Shown in pieces: positions 45,347-52,613 of a stretch of DNA of 64,000 nucleotides. Origin of the DNA: Natrinema marinum (lineage in GTDB: Archaea > Halobacteriota > Halobacteria > Halobacteriales > Natrialbaceae); the NCBI RefSeq assembly GCF_024296685.1, contig NZ_CP100763.1:1302001-1366000 (forward strand), read 5' to 3'. The notes under the pieces were generated by a model. The model worked only from the letters and a program-made list of their open reading frames with translations, was not told the DNA's origin and ran no database searches. Numbering within the stretch: position 1 is the first letter of the stretch; each line of letters opens with the position of its first letter. The position numbers were made by a program, and so were the translations under genes.

Positions 45347-46597
45347 ATGACTGGGATCGAGTACGACGACTTTCTGGACCTCGGGTACGAGCCCGCGGAC
45401 GCTGAACTGGTCTGTGAGTTCGCGATCGAACCGGCTGCGGACATGTCGATGGAAGCGGCCGCCAGCCGGGTCGCCTCGGAGTCCTCGAACGGGACGTGGG
45501 CGGCGTTACACGTCGACGAGGACGAACTGACCGATCTGGGCGCGGTGGCCTGCGGAATCGACGGGACCGAGGTCACCGTCGCGTATCCGCCCGAACTGTT
45601 CGAAGCCGGCAGCATGCCCCAGATCCTCTCGTGTATCGCCGGCAACATCCTCGGCATGAAGGCCGTCGACTCGATCCGGCTCGAGGACTGCCAGTGGCCC
45701 GAATCGATCGTCGGCGGGTTTCCGGGCCCGCAATTCGGGACGAGCGTCGCCAGCGAAAAGCTCGACGCCGGCGAGCGCCCCGTCTTGGCCACGGTCCCGA
45801 AACCCAAGGTCGGCCTCTCGACCGAGGCCCACGCCCGCGTCGGCGAGGACGCCTGGCGCGGCGGTATCGATCTGCTGAAAGACGACGAGAACCTCACCGA
45901 CCAGGCGTTCAACCCGTTCGAAGACCGGCTCACCGAGAGCCTCGCAGCCCGCGACCGCGCACAGGAGGACACGGGCGAGCGCAAAGACTACCTCGTGAAC
46001 GTGACCGCGGAGACGAACGCGATGCTCGAGCGAGTCGACCTCGTCGCCGAACACGGCGGCGGGTTCGTCATGGTCGACGTGATCACGTGCGGCTGGTCGG
46101 CGGTCCAATCGGTCCGCGAACGCTGCGAGAAACACGGACTGGCGATCCACGCTCACCGCGCGATGCACGCCGCCTTCGACCGACTGGACCACCACGGCGT
46201 CTCGATGCGGGTCATCGCCCAGATCGCCCGCCTCTGTGGCGTCGATCACATCCACACCGGTACCGCGGGACTTGGCAAACTCGAAAACGAGGACACGCCG
46301 GGGATCAACGACTGGCTCACCGGCGACTGTCACGGCCTGAAACCCGTGCTTCCGGTGGCCTCTGGCGGGCTCCACCCCGGCGTGGTCGACCAGTTGCTCG
46401 AGGCGCTTGGGACCGACATCGTCGTCCAGGCCGGCGGCGGCGTCCACGGCCACCCCGACGGGACTCACGCGGGTGCGAAAGCGCTCCGACAGTCGGTCGA
46501 GGCGTCGATGGCCGGCGACAGTCTCGAGGACTACGCCGTGGACCACGCCGAACTCGCGACGGCGCTCGAGAAGTGGGGGGCGGAGACTCCGCGGTAA
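45347..46597 (+). CDS. rbcL: Type III ribulose-bisphosphate carboxylase
   Basis: A 416-residue archaeal form III RuBisCO. Catalytic features are all present: K152/K154 in VPKPKVGLS, the carbamylated K178 in LLKDDENL with Asp180-Glu181 as metal ligands, H270 in HAHRAMHAA, K311 in loop 6 (TGTAGLGKLE), and SGGLHPG and GGGVHGHPDG. No small-subunit gene is present, as expected for form III. In archaea such enzymes act in AMP/nucleoside degradation to 3-phosphoglycerate, with AMP phosphorylase and ribose-1,5-bisphosphate isomerase, neither of which is in this window. A palindrome lies upstream. Confidence 0.94.
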   Translation: MTGIEYDDFLDLGYEPADAELVCEFAIEPAADMSMEAAASRVASESSNGTWAALHVDEDELTDLGAVACGIDGTEVTVAYPPELFEAGSMPQILSCIAGNILGMKAVDSIRLEDCQWPESIVGGFPGPQFGTSVASEKLDAGERPVLATVPKPKVGLSTEAHARVGEDAWRGGIDLLKDDENLTDQAFNPFEDRLTESLAARDRAQEDTGERKDYLVNVTAETNAMLERVDLVAEHGGGFVMVDVITCGWSAVQSVRERCEKHGLAIHAHRAMHAAFDRLDHHGVSMRVIAQIARLCGVDHIHTGTAGLGKLENEDTPGINDWLTGDCHGLKPVLPVASGGLHPGVVDQLLEALGTDIVVQAGGGVHGHPDGTHAGAKALRQSVEASMAGDSLEDYAVDHAELATALEKWGAETPR

Positions 46598-47260: not shown

Positions 47261-48166
47261 TTACTCGGACGGCGATGTCCGGTCGACGAACTCGACGATG
47301 TGTTCGGCGATCTCCTCGCCGGCGTCCTCCTGCAGGAAGTGTGCGGCCTCGTCGATCCAGATGTCGGGTTGCTCGGTTGCGGTCGGAATGTGTTGGCGAA
47401 GCGGATCACGATCGTGAGACGTGATCGGGTCCTCTCTCCCGAACAGCACGAACGCGGGTTTCTCCCACTCGCCGAGGAGGTCCTGGGTCTCGGCCATCAG
47501 CTCCGCCCCGGGATCGTCGGGCGATGTCGGGACGAGGCCGGGGAAGGTCCGCGCGGCGGCCTTGTACCGCTCGTCCGGGAACGGCGCGCGGTAGGCGTCG
47601 ACCTCCTCCGCCGAGAGGTCGCGGTAGCAGCCCCCTTCGACGAGCCTGCCGATGTCGAACTCCTCGGCGGTCTCTACCATCTCGAGGAACTCGTGCCACC
47701 GGTCGCTCATCTCCTGTGTCCCGTCCGGGACGCCGGTGTTCATCGGAACGATGCGCGCGAACCGGTCGGGTTCGTGGGTCGCAAGCGACAGTCCGAGAAC
47801 GCCCCCCCAGTCCTGGCAGACGAGCGTGACGTTCGTCAGGTCGAGTTCCTCGACGAAGGTCTTCAGCGCGTCGTAGTGCATCTCGACGGAGTACTCATCG
47901 AGGTCCTCGTACCGGTCGGAGCGACCACAGCCGATCAGGTCTGGAACGACGACGCGGCCGCGCTCGGCCAGCGTAGGCATCATCTTTCGGTAGAGGAACG
48001 ACCACGTTGGCTCGCCGTGCAGACAGAGGAACGTCTCCTCGGCTTTGTCGGCTTCGTCGCCGGCTTCCACGTACGCCATGCGCAATCCGCCGACATCGAC
48101 GTACTGGGGCTCGTAATCGAAATCCGGCACGTCCTCGAATCGCTCCTCCGGGACACTAAGGACCAT
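47261..48166 (-). CDS. Haloalkane dehalogenase-like alpha/beta hydrolase (HLD-I type)
   Basis: A 301-residue alpha/beta-hydrolase with the marks of subfamily I haloalkane dehalogenases (DhlA-type). The oxyanion block HGEPTWSFLYRKMMP is at 50-64. The nucleophile elbow is VCQDWGG, with Asp119 as nucleophile and Trp120 as the first halide-binding Trp. The acid is probably Asp246 (GREDPIT) and the catalytic His is His276 (AAHFLQED). The lid domain, about 150-230, contains W157 as a possible second halide ligand. The expected reaction is hydrolysis of a halogenated alkane to alcohol and halide, though activity in archaea must be tested. An epoxide hydrolase or other hydrolase is the alternative. 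Confidence 0.8.
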   Translation of the reverse strand: MVLSVPEERFEDVPDFDYEPQYVDVGGLRMAYVEAGDEADKAEETFLCLHGEPTWSFLYRKMMPTLAERGRVVVPDLIGCGRSDRYEDLDEYSVEMHYDALKTFVEELDLTNVTLVCQDWGGVLGLSLATHEPDRFARIVPMNTGVPDGTQEMSDRWHEFLEMVETAEEFDIGRLVEGGCYRDLSAEEVDAYRAPFPDERYKAAARTFPGLVPTSPDDPGAELMAETQDLLGEWEKPAFVLFGREDPITSHDRDPLRQHIPTATEQPDIWIDEAAHFLQEDAGEEIAEHIVEFVDRTSPSE

Positions 48167-48345
48167 ACGGCGTGATACCCCACACCACTATTCAAAGATT
48201 GGGGAACCGATATCAACCGATTCTAGATTTTCTCTGGTCCGTCTCCGTCCATAATCACAATGTGTTACTCCGCAGGAAGAAGCGGCTTGACCGGCCACCG
48301 AACACTTCACGCTCGTCGCAACTATCCAAAAACGTTATAATCTCG

Positions 48346-48371
48346 TTAACCACGTCTAGAATCGTGGTTTA
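48346..48371. promoter_or_regulatory. Inverted repeat covering the bioB start
   Basis: Nine-base arms with one mismatch (AACCACG and CGTGGTT are the exact core) flank an 8-base spacer and include the bioB GTG codon. With a TATA element at 48335-48341 (ttataat), the repeat covers the presumed transcription start. It is a likely operator or a start-codon hairpin. Confidence 0.5.
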
Positions 48372-49467
48372 CGAGACTGGAAACGAGACGGTCGACGACG
48401 CACTCGAGCGGGTGCTCTCCGGCGAGCGCCTCGACCGGACCGACGGGCTCGCGCTGATGGCCCAGCCGGTCGACGCCCTCGCGGAGGCCGGCGCGGCCGT
48501 GCGCGATCGCTTCGGCGACGGCACGGTCGACGCCTGCTCGATCGTCAACGCGAAGGCGGGCAACTGCGCCGAGGATTGTGGGTTCTGCGCGCAATCGGTC
48601 CACTTCGACACCGGCATCGACACCTACGGCTTCCTCGGCCCGGAGAAGATCCTCGAGGCCGCCAAGCGAGCCGAACGCGATGGCGCCCAGCGATTCGGCA
48701 TCGTCGTCGCCGAGAAGGGCGTCTCGAAGGAACACCGCCCCGAAGAGTGGGCGGAAGTTCTCGAGTCGATCCGACTCGTCCGCGACGAGTGCGACCTCGA
48801 GGTCGACGCCTCGCTCGGTATTCTGACCGAGGAAGAGGCCGCGATCCTCGCCGAGGAGGGGATCAACCACTACAATCACAACATCGAGACCTCCCCGAAC
48901 TACTTCCCCGAGATCGTCGGGAGCCACAGCTTCGAGGACCGCGTTCAGACCCTCGAGGTGGCCAAGGAGGCCGGCATGGACCTCTGTGCCGGCGTCATCC
49001 TCGGCATGGGCGAGACGCCGACCGACCGCGTCGAGGCGGCGATCGCCCTGCAGGACATCGGGATCTCCTCGCTGCCGGTCAACGTCCTCAATCCGGTCGC
49101 GGGCACGCCGCTGGCCGAGCAGGGCGTCGACATCAGTACGGCGGAAATCGTCAAGACGGTCGCGGTGTACAAGCTGCTCCACCCCGAGTCGCGGGTGCGG
49201 CTCACCGGCGGCCGCGAGGTCAACCTGGCGCCCGAGGAGCAACACCTCCCCCTCGAGGCTGGCGCGGACGGCATTCTCACCGGCGACTACCTCACCACCG
49301 AGGGCCAGTCCCCCGGCGAGGACATCGAGATCATCGAACGCGCCGGGCTCGAGCCCAACCGGGAGACCAACAACTTCGACCCCGAGGAGGTCAAGGCCCG
49401 CCACGGCGGGGCCGCCGAATCGTCGACCGGGTCGGCGAGTACGGGCGCAGAACCGAGCGACGACTGA
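48364..49467 (+). CDS. bioB: Biotin synthase
   Basis: A 367-residue radical SAM enzyme that inserts sulfur into dethiobiotin to make biotin. The SAM cluster motif CxxxCxxC is C68, C72, C75 (NCAEDCGFCAQS). Other conserved stretches are GAQRFGIVVAEKG, NHYNHNIETSPNYFPEIV, GVILGMGETPTDRVE and VRLTGGREVNL. The 40-residue tail after GAGADGILTGDYLTTEGQ is acidic. The start is taken as the GTG at 48364, because the residues upstream in the same frame are Arg-rich and an AT-rich TATA element (48335-48341) lies 23-29 bases before it. It is the first gene of the biotin operon. Confidence 0.95.
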   Translation: MVYETGNETVDDALERVLSGERLDRTDGLALMAQPVDALAEAGAAVRDRFGDGTVDACSIVNAKAGNCAEDCGFCAQSVHFDTGIDTYGFLGPEKILEAAKRAERDGAQRFGIVVAEKGVSKEHRPEEWAEVLESIRLVRDECDLEVDASLGILTEEEAAILAEEGINHYNHNIETSPNYFPEIVGSHSFEDRVQTLEVAKEAGMDLCAGVILGMGETPTDRVEAAIALQDIGISSLPVNVLNPVAGTPLAEQGVDISTAEIVKTVAVYKLLHPESRVRLTGGREVNLAPEEQHLPLEAGADGILTGDYLTTEGQSPGEDIEIIERAGLEPNRETNNFDPEEVKARHGGAAESSTGSASTGAEPSDD

Positions 49468-49496
49468 CGACACGCGAATTCACCACATCGATACAC

Positions 49497-50549
49497 ATGG
49501 ACGACATCACGTTTGCGGTACTCGGAACTGGCGGCATCGGCCGACGAGCACTCGAAGTGAGCCAGCACAAAGACGCCCTGACGCCCATCGCGGCCTGTGA
49601 CCGACACGGCGTCGCGTTCGACTTCGACGGCCTCGACGTCGACGAACTGCTGGCGGCCACGGAGGGAAATATCGATAACGAAGTTGCGACTGATGGAGGA
49701 ACGACAGCCGCCGGGGGCGGCGTCAAACAGCACGGCGAGGACAAGGGCGTCGTCGCCTCGAGCCAGGCCCGACCCAGCGAGGACCCCATTCAGGAGGTCA
49801 TCGACCACGGCGACCGGATCGACGCGGTCTTGCTCGCCCTGCCGAACTACGAACACGACTTCATCCCGCGGACCGCCGACCGCTTCGTCGAGGGCGACTA
49901 CTCCGGCGTCATGATCGACGTGCTCAAGCGCTCGCGCGTGATCGACATGCTCGACGACCGCCGCGACGAGTTCGCCGAGGCCGGCATCACCTTCATCTGC
50001 GGCGCTGGCGCGACGCCCGGCCTGCTGACCGGCGCGGCGGCGCTCGCGGCACAGTCGTTCGTCGAGGTCACGGACGTCGACATCCACTGGGGCGTCGGCC
50101 TCAAATCCGGCTACGAGGACAACCGCGGCACCGTCCGCGAGGACATCGCCCACCTCCCCGAGTACGACATCGAGACCGCACGCGAGCTCTCCGAGGCCGA
50201 GATCGAGGCGATCATCGACGACCACGACGGCGTCATCGAATTCGAGGACATGGAACACGCCGACGACGTGTTGCTCGAGCGCGCGGGCGTCTGTGACGCC
50301 GCGGATGTCTCCGTCGGCGGAATCCTCGACGTGCGCAACGACGAGAAGCCGACGACGACCACCGTCCGCGTGACCGGGCGGACCTCCGACGGCGAGACCG
50401 CGACGAACACGTTCCAACTCGGCGACGAGACGAGCATGGAAGCCAACGTCAACGGCCCCGCGCTGGGCTACCTGAAAGCCGGTGTCCGGCGCAACCGTGC
50501 GGGCGAGTACGGCGTCTTCGGACCGGCCGATCTGATGCCCGGCTTCTGA
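49497..50549 (+). CDS. bioU: BioU-like NAD(P)-dependent oxidoreductase of the biotin operon
   Basis: A 350-residue protein with an N-terminal Rossmann motif (FAVLGTGGIGRRALE) and homology to saccharopine dehydrogenase-like oxidoreductases. It lies between bioB and bioF, and no bioA (DAPA aminotransferase) is present in the cluster. From memory, BioU of cyanobacteria makes 7,8-diaminopelargonate from KAPA as a suicide enzyme using a Lys, and haloarchaeal BioU proteins are reported that do not need the sacrificial residue. Candidate active residues lie in VMIDVLKRSRVIDML (K144, S146). The Gly-rich block GGTTAAGGGVKQ and the GAGATPGLLTGAAAL loop suit NAD(P) and substrate binding. Its position is the best evidence for the role. 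Confidence 0.8.
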   Translation: MDDITFAVLGTGGIGRRALEVSQHKDALTPIAACDRHGVAFDFDGLDVDELLAATEGNIDNEVATDGGTTAAGGGVKQHGEDKGVVASSQARPSEDPIQEVIDHGDRIDAVLLALPNYEHDFIPRTADRFVEGDYSGVMIDVLKRSRVIDMLDDRRDEFAEAGITFICGAGATPGLLTGAAALAAQSFVEVTDVDIHWGVGLKSGYEDNRGTVREDIAHLPEYDIETARELSEAEIEAIIDDHDGVIEFEDMEHADDVLLERAGVCDAADVSVGGILDVRNDEKPTTTTVRVTGRTSDGETATNTFQLGDETSMEANVNGPALGYLKAGVRRNRAGEYGVFGPADLMPGF

Positions 50550-50586
50550 CCGCACTGTTCCCCTCGTCGTTTCAATGATCAAAACT

Positions 50587-50601
50587 ATTGATGCAATCAA
50601 T
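50587..50601. promoter_or_regulatory. ATTGAT/ATCAAT palindrome before bioF
   Basis: The 15 bases from 50587 to 50601 have 6-base arms ATTGAT/ATCAAT around a three-base centre. They lie in the 151-base gap between bioU and the bioF ATG at 50701 and could be a regulatory site or a residue of an internal promoter. Confidence 0.35.
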
Positions 50602-50700
50602 ACCGCCACATATCGCACGCCTCGAGCGGTCTCCGGGACGAACCACCCGAGCGAGCCGAACCGTGAGAGTGAAACCGTGGCGCTGAGTCCGTCTAGTCGA

Positions 50701-51915
50701 ATGGCCGACCGCGGGTTCGACCTCGAGGACCGACTCCGGACGCTCGAGGAGAACGACTTGAAACGGGCACTCTCGCCTGGCGATCGGGTCGCCGAGCGCG
50801 GCTACTTCGCCGAGCCGTCGGGCGCCGATCTCCCGGTACTCGACTCGGCGGAGGCGCTGGTGTTTGCCTCGAACAACTATCTGGGGCTGACCGACGACCA
50901 GCGGGTACAGGACGCGGCCCGACAGGCGGCCGCGACCGTCGGCACCGGCGCGGGCGCGAGCCGCCTCGTCACCGGTGATACGCTGGTCCATCAGGATTTA
51001 GAGCGCGTGCTTGCCGAGACGAAAGGCACCGAGCGCGCGCTCGCATTTTCGTCCGGGTACGCCGCGAACGTGGGGACGATCGCAGCGCTCGAGCCCGACG
51101 TGGTCTTCTCCGACGAACTAAATCACGCGAGCATCATCGATGGCTGTCGGCTCGCGGCTTCCGAGACTGTCGTCTACGACCACTGCGACGCCGCGAGCCT
51201 GCGAGCGGCCCTCGAGGAGCGGGCCGACCGAGCTGGAGGGGGAACGGCCGACGAATCCTGGCTGATCGTCACCGACTCGGTGTTCAGCATGGACGGCACC
51301 GTCGCCCCGCTCGAGGACATCTGCGACGCCGCCGAGGAGTTCGGCGCGTGGGTGATGGTCGACGAGGCCCACGCGACGGGCCTCTACGCGAACGGCGGCG
51401 GTATCGTCCAGGCCGAAGGGCTCGAGGACCGAGTCCAAATCCAGATGGGGACGCTCTCGAAGGCGCTGGCCAGTCAGGGCGGCTACGTCGCCGGCAGTTC
51501 GGAACTGATCGAGTGTCTCCTCAACGACGCCAGATCGTTCGTCTTCTCGACCGGCCTCGCGCCGCCGGCCGCCGCCGCCGCCAGCGAGGCGTTGCACGTC
51601 GCTCGCCACGGCGACGTGCGCGAGCGACTCTGGGAGAACGTCGCTCACTTGCGCGATGGCCTCGAGTCGATGGGGCTCGAGGTCTGGGGCGACTCCCAGA
51701 TTCTCCCCGTCGTCATCGGCGACCGTCGGGACGCGATGGCCCTCGCGGAGGGGATCCGCGAGCGAGATGTCGTCGCACCGGCGATCCGGCCGCCGACTGT
51801 CCCCGAGGGAACCAGCCGCATCCGCGTCGTCCCGATGGCGACCCACGGGCAGGGCGACATCGTCGCCTGCCTCGAGGCGTTCCGCGCCGCAGGCGAGGAG
51901 GTGGGGCTGCTGTGA
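50701..51915 (+). CDS. bioF: 8-amino-7-oxononanoate synthase
   Basis: A 404-residue alpha-oxoamine synthase (PLP fold type I) that joins pimeloyl-thioester and alanine to form KAPA. Key blocks are ASNNYLGL, SRLVTGDTLVHQDLERVLAETKGTERALAFSSGYAANVG, FSDELNHASIIDGCRL, VDEAHATGLYANGGG and the Schiff-base Lys of GTLSKALASQGGYVAG. Related enzymes (Kbl, HemA) share the fold, but the operon settles it. The ATG at 50701 was chosen because upstream codons in the same frame are not conserved. Its TGA overlaps bioD by four bases. Confidence 0.94.
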   Translation: MADRGFDLEDRLRTLEENDLKRALSPGDRVAERGYFAEPSGADLPVLDSAEALVFASNNYLGLTDDQRVQDAARQAAATVGTGAGASRLVTGDTLVHQDLERVLAETKGTERALAFSSGYAANVGTIAALEPDVVFSDELNHASIIDGCRLAASETVVYDHCDAASLRAALEERADRAGGGTADESWLIVTDSVFSMDGTVAPLEDICDAAEEFGAWVMVDEAHATGLYANGGGIVQAEGLEDRVQIQMGTLSKALASQGGYVAGSSELIECLLNDARSFVFSTGLAPPAAAAASEALHVARHGDVRERLWENVAHLRDGLESMGLEVWGDSQILPVVIGDRRDAMALAEGIRERDVVAPAIRPPTVPEGTSRIRVVPMATHGQGDIVACLEAFRAAGEEVGLL

Positions 51916-52613
51916 GCGCAGCCCGACCGATCGCCGTCGTGGGCACCGGGACCGACGTCGGAAAGACGGTCATCACGGCCGGGCTCACGCACCTGCTTCG
52001 CGACGCCGGTCACAACGCACGGGCGATCAAACCGGCCCAGACGGGTCATCCGCCGGACGACGACGCGGGCTTCGTCGCCGGGGCCTGTGACGATCCGACC
52101 GCCGCGACCTGCCCGCGCTACCTCGAGCCCGCGCTGGCTCCCCGCGTCGCGGCCGAAATCGCGGACGAAGAGCTCACCTACGAGTCGATCCGTGCGGCCT
52201 GCGAGCGCGAGATCGAGGCGACGCCGGTCCCGTTCGTCGAAGGGATCGGCGGACTCCGGGTGCCGCTGGCCGGCGACCACGAGGTGATCGACCTCGTGGC
52301 CGATCTCGAGGCGACGGCGGTCGTCGTCACCCGGTCGGGGCTCGGGACGCTCAACCACACCGCGCTCTCGGTCGACGCGCTCGAGGACCGCGGCGTCGAT
52401 GTCTGCGGGATCGTCGTCAACGAGTACGCCGGCGAAACCGTCGCCGAGCGGACGAACCCGGACGAACTCGAGCGGATGACCGGCTACGCGGTCGAGACGG
52501 TGCCGCCGCTGGGCGGGAGAGACGACGAACCCGACCCGCGCGAGCTAGCCGCCGGCGTCAGCGACGCACTGTCGCCCGCGTTTCGTGAGCGATTGCCGAT
52601 AGAACGCGTCTGA
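51912..52613 (+). CDS. bioD: Dethiobiotin synthetase
   Basis: A 233-residue ATP-dependent carboxylase-type enzyme that closes the ureido ring of dethiobiotin. The P-loop is GTGTDVGKTVITAG at the N-terminus, and IKPAQTGHPPDDDAGFVA and VEGIGGLRVPLAGDHEV follow. The start is GTG, overlapping the bioF stop as GTGA. Nothing is missing from the family pattern. It closes the bioB-bioU-bioF-bioD operon. Confidence 0.94.
   Translation: MSAARPIAVVGTGTDVGKTVITAGLTHLLRDAGHNARAIKPAQTGHPPDDDAGFVAGACDDPTAATCPRYLEPALAPRVAAEIADEELTYESIRAACEREIEATPVPFVEGIGGLRVPLAGDHEVIDLVADLEATAVVVTRSGLGTLNHTALSVDALEDRGVDVCGIVVNEYAGETVAERTNPDELERMTGYAVETVPPLGGRDDEPDPRELAAGVSDALSPAFRERLPIERV

Follow-up and report, generated by a model that had tools for sequence, protein, structure and literature searches.

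The window analysed here, a stretch of 64,000 nucleotides from Natrinema marinum, belongs to a complete, 3.77-Mb haloarchaeal genome, and carries a set of four biotin-synthesis genes preceded by a putative regulatory site. The features that concern us are listed below, with positions counted from the first base of the window.

48335..48341, forward strand: TATA-box-like TTATAAT, read from the sequence, with its centre about 26 bases upstream of the bioB start codon
48345..48372, unstranded: palindrome GTTAACC-N14-GGTTTAC, putative BirA-type operator, just downstream of the TATA-like box and spanning the bioB GTG start
48364..49467, forward strand: bioB, biotin synthase (radical SAM), with a GTG start, Radical_SAM and BATS domains, and 334 bits on TIGR00433 (cut-off 225)
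49497..50549, forward strand: bioU, predicted NAD(P)-dependent sacrificial amine donor converting KAPA to DAPA (or DAPA carbamate), 350 residues, matching NF047886 at E 1.5e-101
49665..49739, forward strand: disordered insert in the Rossmann half of the bioU product, residues 57-81, with pLDDT under 50, in the gap between two phmmer segments
49926..49928, forward strand: codon of K144, counterpart of the sacrificial Lys124 in Synechocystis by alignment with the position mutated in the K124A structures 6itd and 6k37
50256..50258, forward strand: codon of H254, which lines up with the position mutated in the H233A structure 6k38 (Synechocystis His233) and is invariant in our alignment A1
50701..51915, forward strand: bioF, 8-amino-7-oxononanoate (KAPA) synthase, 401 bits on TIGR00858, slightly under the 426-bit cut-off
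51912..52613, forward strand: bioD, dethiobiotin synthase, 109 bits on TIGR00347 (cut-off 83)

A preliminary description of this DNA had placed bioB, an oxidoreductase gene, bioF and bioD at 48364-52613, with a four-base overlap between the last two, and this is borne out by the coordinates and by the model matches, the bases shared by bioF and bioD being GTGA. The same order, bioB-bioU-bioF-bioD on a single strand, is found in all the haloarchaeal loci that have the four genes (137/137), and because order and strand are shared throughout, the arrangement is not due to chance. The operon is present in about 150 related genomes sampled and, across families, no gene other than these four recurs in its neighbourhood in the collected haloarchaeal loci. 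In Haloferax mediterranei, bioB (HFX_5079), bioF (HFX_5077) and bioD (HFX_5076) respond together, and HFX_5078, whose number lies between those of bioB and bioF, was left unnamed in that study (PMC10779274).

The collected loci also show some variation around this arrangement. The whole operon is carried on large plasmids in records of Haloferax, Haladaptatus, Natrinema and Natronococcus (L215, L216 and others), and three loci of one genus (L168, L181 and L184) have bioB-bioU with no bioF or bioD nearby, though their contigs run on. Near the operon in the window there is a gene for a RuBisCO large chain (45347-46597, over the cut-off of Pfam RuBisCO_large), and such a gene lies in the neighbourhood of the biotin operon in 19 collected loci.

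The BioU model NF047886 (AmOxnSyBioU) is the sole NCBIfam match of the 350-residue oxidoreductase, with a score of 340 bits that lies under the curated 600-bit cut-off for membership, a value not reached in any of the 391 haloarchaeal genomes that were searched. No Pfam domain was matched by the protein, hence no DNA-binding domain. Among solved structures, the only phmmer match is Synechocystis BioU (Slr0355, E 7e-87), with 47% identity over 262 residues and about 44-47% over the aligned part, and the spacing from the catalytic lysine to the GATPG motif is equal in the two proteins. The AlphaFold model of the oxidoreductase (mean pLDDT 75) matches the five BioU crystal structures (6ir4, 6itd, 6k36-6k38) with Z 38, aligning with 6itd over 322 residues at 2.2 Å, while the nearest non-BioU folds are those of amine dehydrogenases and carboxyspermidine dehydrogenases, with Z 17-18. 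Similarity to BioU, on which the preliminary assignment had been made to depend, is thus clear in both alignment and fold. The plasmid record with the closest BioU match is from Natrinema thermotolerans (95% identity).

Judged by homology, modelled fold and catalytic residues, the oxidoreductase is a BioU. The family itself is already known, having reportedly been described by Sakaki and colleagues in 2020, and the haloarchaeal group represents new, well-supported members of it. The haloarchaeal protein has the fold in common with Synechocystis BioU and keeps the equivalents of Lys124 and His233, but its Rossmann half contains the disordered insert, where residues 57-81 belong to a stretch that is not alignable with the Synechocystis protein, and its gene shares an operon with bioB, bioF and bioD.

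The two catalytic positions were identified from the residues mutated in BioU, as read from the titles and sequences of 6itd and 6k37 (K124A) and of 6k38 (H233A). A lysine occupies the K144 position in each of the 149 haloarchaeal BioU loci gathered from the 391 genomes, a set in which Haloferax mediterranei was not identified, and the BioU of Haloferax larsenii carries this lysine. The same holds for 80 of 80 cyanobacterial BioUs examined. Therefore, there is no sequence support for a lysine-free haloarchaeal BioU, and the statement in the preliminary description that a haloarchaeal BioU acts without the sacrificial lysine is not supported, K144 being present here as well. The literature searched, which took in a minority of subscription journals, yielded neither a report of a BioU that dispenses with the lysine nor activity data for any haloarchaeal BioU. 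A codon for Ser, Thr, Cys, Trp or Arg at the lysine position of the motif D[AV]L.R...GATPG[LF]LT was found in none of about 85,000 genomes, a pattern that misses motifs of the DAI type, and a serine-type BioU, for which this single form of the motif gave zero matches, was dropped as a candidate. Conservation of the lysine fits suicide chemistry without proving it, because many other columns of the BioU alignment are also invariant and the fold is common to catalytic dehydrogenases, and it would fit a multi-turnover role too. Single-turnover chemistry is the default prediction for the haloarchaeal BioU.

The absence of bioA, which the preliminary description had reported for the cluster, extends to the whole genome, where a search for a copy elsewhere returned none over the cut-off. 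The best match to the bioA model (TIGR00508) in the 3.77 Mb reaches about 289 bits against a cut-off of 405, and the protein concerned scores much higher on other aminotransferase models (424 bits, a lead of more than 130 bits). The class III aminotransferase family has 12 matches in the genome, none of them at the bioA cut-off. A bioA over the cut-off was likewise found in 0 of 63 haloarchaea tested, compared with 6 of 14 control genomes. These 63 include about 30 that have bioB but no intact BioU, and which therefore are not using BioA instead. BioA takes KAPA to DAPA, as BioU does, but is an unrelated, multi-turnover PLP enzyme. The suggestion that the oxidoreductase takes the DAPA step consequently gains support from its similarity to BioU in sequence and fold, from the two catalytic residues and from the absence of bioA.

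Within our sample of the phylum, BioU is confined to genomes of the order to which the source organism belongs. Its relatives amount to 454 stretches in the genome collection, the best 80 of which are all cyanobacterial, and an ancient transfer of bioU between cyanobacteria and haloarchaea is plausible. In the haloarchaea lacking BioU that we inspected, bioB stands alone at most loci, is sometimes accompanied by bioF, and never has bioD nearby. Two loci retain bioB and bioF beside a decaying bioU, which at one of them (L209) is just a short match and at the other (L210) is broken into two pieces.

Upstream of the operon, the distance between the TATA-like box and the bioB start codon matches the archaeal TATA rule, and suggests that the bioB transcript is leaderless. 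The palindrome that spans the start codon is conserved across haloarchaea: of 165 regions upstream of bioB, 158 reach a score of 12-14 out of 14, versus 0 of 165 shuffled ones. It partly fixes the first BioB codons, which it overlaps (V-V-Y-E or M-V-Y-E). Exactly one site per genome was found in the 8 genomes searched, with 0 for a reversed control pattern, so that further members of an operator regulon were discarded. A search for an RNA regulator in the region gave no Rfam match. Encoded elsewhere in the genome are the BioY biotin transporter and BirA (L299), a Group II ligase with HTH and ligase (BPL) domains (PF08279 (HTH_11), PF03099 and PF02237, with TIGR00121 over its cut-off). The palindrome resembles the BirA box, reportedly set out in 2002 by Rodionov and colleagues. 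Both parts of the BirA biotin regulon, a protein joining HTH and ligase domains and a palindrome, are therefore present here too, but in this case the promoter is archaeal, the site lies over the codon at which translation of a probably leaderless mRNA starts, and each of the 8 genomes searched has just one such site, with no copy at the BioY gene. The operon is probably repressed by this BirA, which joins a biotin ligase to a DNA-binding head, through binding to the palindrome. The bioB palindromic operator is new, in that it was previously unremarked as far as the literature searched shows.

Taking these observations together, we consider it very probable that the 350-residue protein is a BioU that performs the step of BioA, with K144 probably used once and the operon probably repressed by BirA. 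By analogy with Synechocystis BioU (the mechanism is summarised in PMC12915131), the amino group of K144 would condense with the ketone of KAPA and the adduct would be reduced by NAD(P)H. The K144-KAPA conjugate would then be carboxylated, and an NAD(P)+-dependent oxidation would free DAPA-carbamate. Because K144 would be left as an aldehyde in this process, each BioU molecule would probably be used only once, donating the side chain of its own lysine, and BioD followed by BioB would complete biotin.

It is very improbable that the oxidoreductase has a regulatory or general dehydrogenase function instead and lies in the operon by chance, with a class III aminotransferase acting as BioA. Its orthologues are indeed labelled 'transcriptional regulator' or 'hypothetical protein' in public haloarchaeal records, and the genome has the 12 class III aminotransferase matches mentioned above, but the protein combines the sequence and fold of BioU with both catalytic residues, lacks any Pfam domain and hence a DNA-binding domain, and has an invariant placement between bioB and bioF, while the best bioA-like protein scores 424 bits on other aminotransferase models versus about 290 on that of bioA. 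A greater, though still small, likelihood attaches to a BioU that would make DAPA over many turnovers, either by regeneration of K144 or with free lysine or ammonia as the amine donor. The nearest non-BioU folds belong to multi-turnover amine and carboxyspermidine dehydrogenases, so the scaffold is capable of such catalysis, and lysine conservation is compatible with it; however, every one of the 149 haloarchaeal proteins retains the sacrificial lysine, and no lysine-free BioU was seen, the codon pattern having 0 matches in the roughly 85,000 genomes, DAI-type motifs being missed.

A further alternative concerns the pathway as a whole, and bears on the source of the pimeloyl group. The preliminary description had seen no gene for its supply and, as regards bioW and bioC, this extends to the whole genome, in which we found no BioW and no BioC over the cut-off. 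An acyl carrier protein (ACP) was also not found in this genome, whereas 11 of 14 control genomes were positive. Matches to BioW occur in 3 of the 391 haloarchaea, all under the cut-off and once within the bio operon, where a bioW-like gene lies between bioB and bioU (L047 in genome G021, B-W-U-F-D), the sole case seen; two genomes of the source's genus have bioW elsewhere. A pimelate gene could not be recovered from the conserved neighbourhood, given that nothing but the four genes recurs and that bioW is inside the operon in one genome only. We also rejected a bioH-like role for the alpha/beta hydrolase encoded at 47261-48166, divergently from bioB, which is haloalkane-dehalogenase-like (361 bits versus the 265-bit cut-off of that family) and adjoins bioB in just 29 of 150 loci. 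The operon might thus serve salvage from scavenged pimelate or KAPA rather than full synthesis, a reading that we hold to be rather unlikely, and that is compatible with BioU carrying out the conversion to DAPA. The lack of ACP, BioW or BioC over the cut-off speaks for salvage, as does the presence of the BioY transporter; against it, a locus that we take to be on the Natronomonas pharaonis chromosome (L065) has the B-U-F-D operon and a BioU with the lysine. N. pharaonis is reported to be prototrophic for biotin, and Natrialba magadii auxotrophic (PMC3403918). An ACP-free route or pimelate uptake must be considered for the pimeloyl group. Since the ACP and BioW routes are missing and yet at least one species apparently with the operon is reported to be biotin-independent, haloarchaea may make biotin fully de novo, through a consumable DAPA enzyme and an undescribed ACP-free route to pimeloyl-CoA, a proposal that we make tentatively and put at slightly under an even chance.

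In a 2018 survey of 31 Halobacteria genomes, bioF was found in 18, bioD in 14, bioB in 19 and bioA in 0; such archaeal pathways were called fragmentary, and only Methanococcales and Thaumarchaeota were named as having bio clusters (PMC6138646). The sets of these two groups (PMC6138646) have bioD, bioB and bioF in common with those of haloarchaea, but they use bioA, and Methanococcales also bioW, whereas haloarchaea would use BioU, almost always without BioW. BioU is the exact filler of the bioA gap left by that survey, in about 150 sampled genomes, and the misleading labels of 'transcriptional regulator' and 'hypothetical protein', by which annotation had hidden the gap-filling enzyme, can be corrected to BioU. 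The question that follows is a sharper one, namely how the pimeloyl group is supplied in cells that have neither BioW nor an acyl carrier protein. The haloarchaeal BioU would, moreover, carry single-use enzyme chemistry into a second domain of life, and into genetically tractable hosts (Haloferax).
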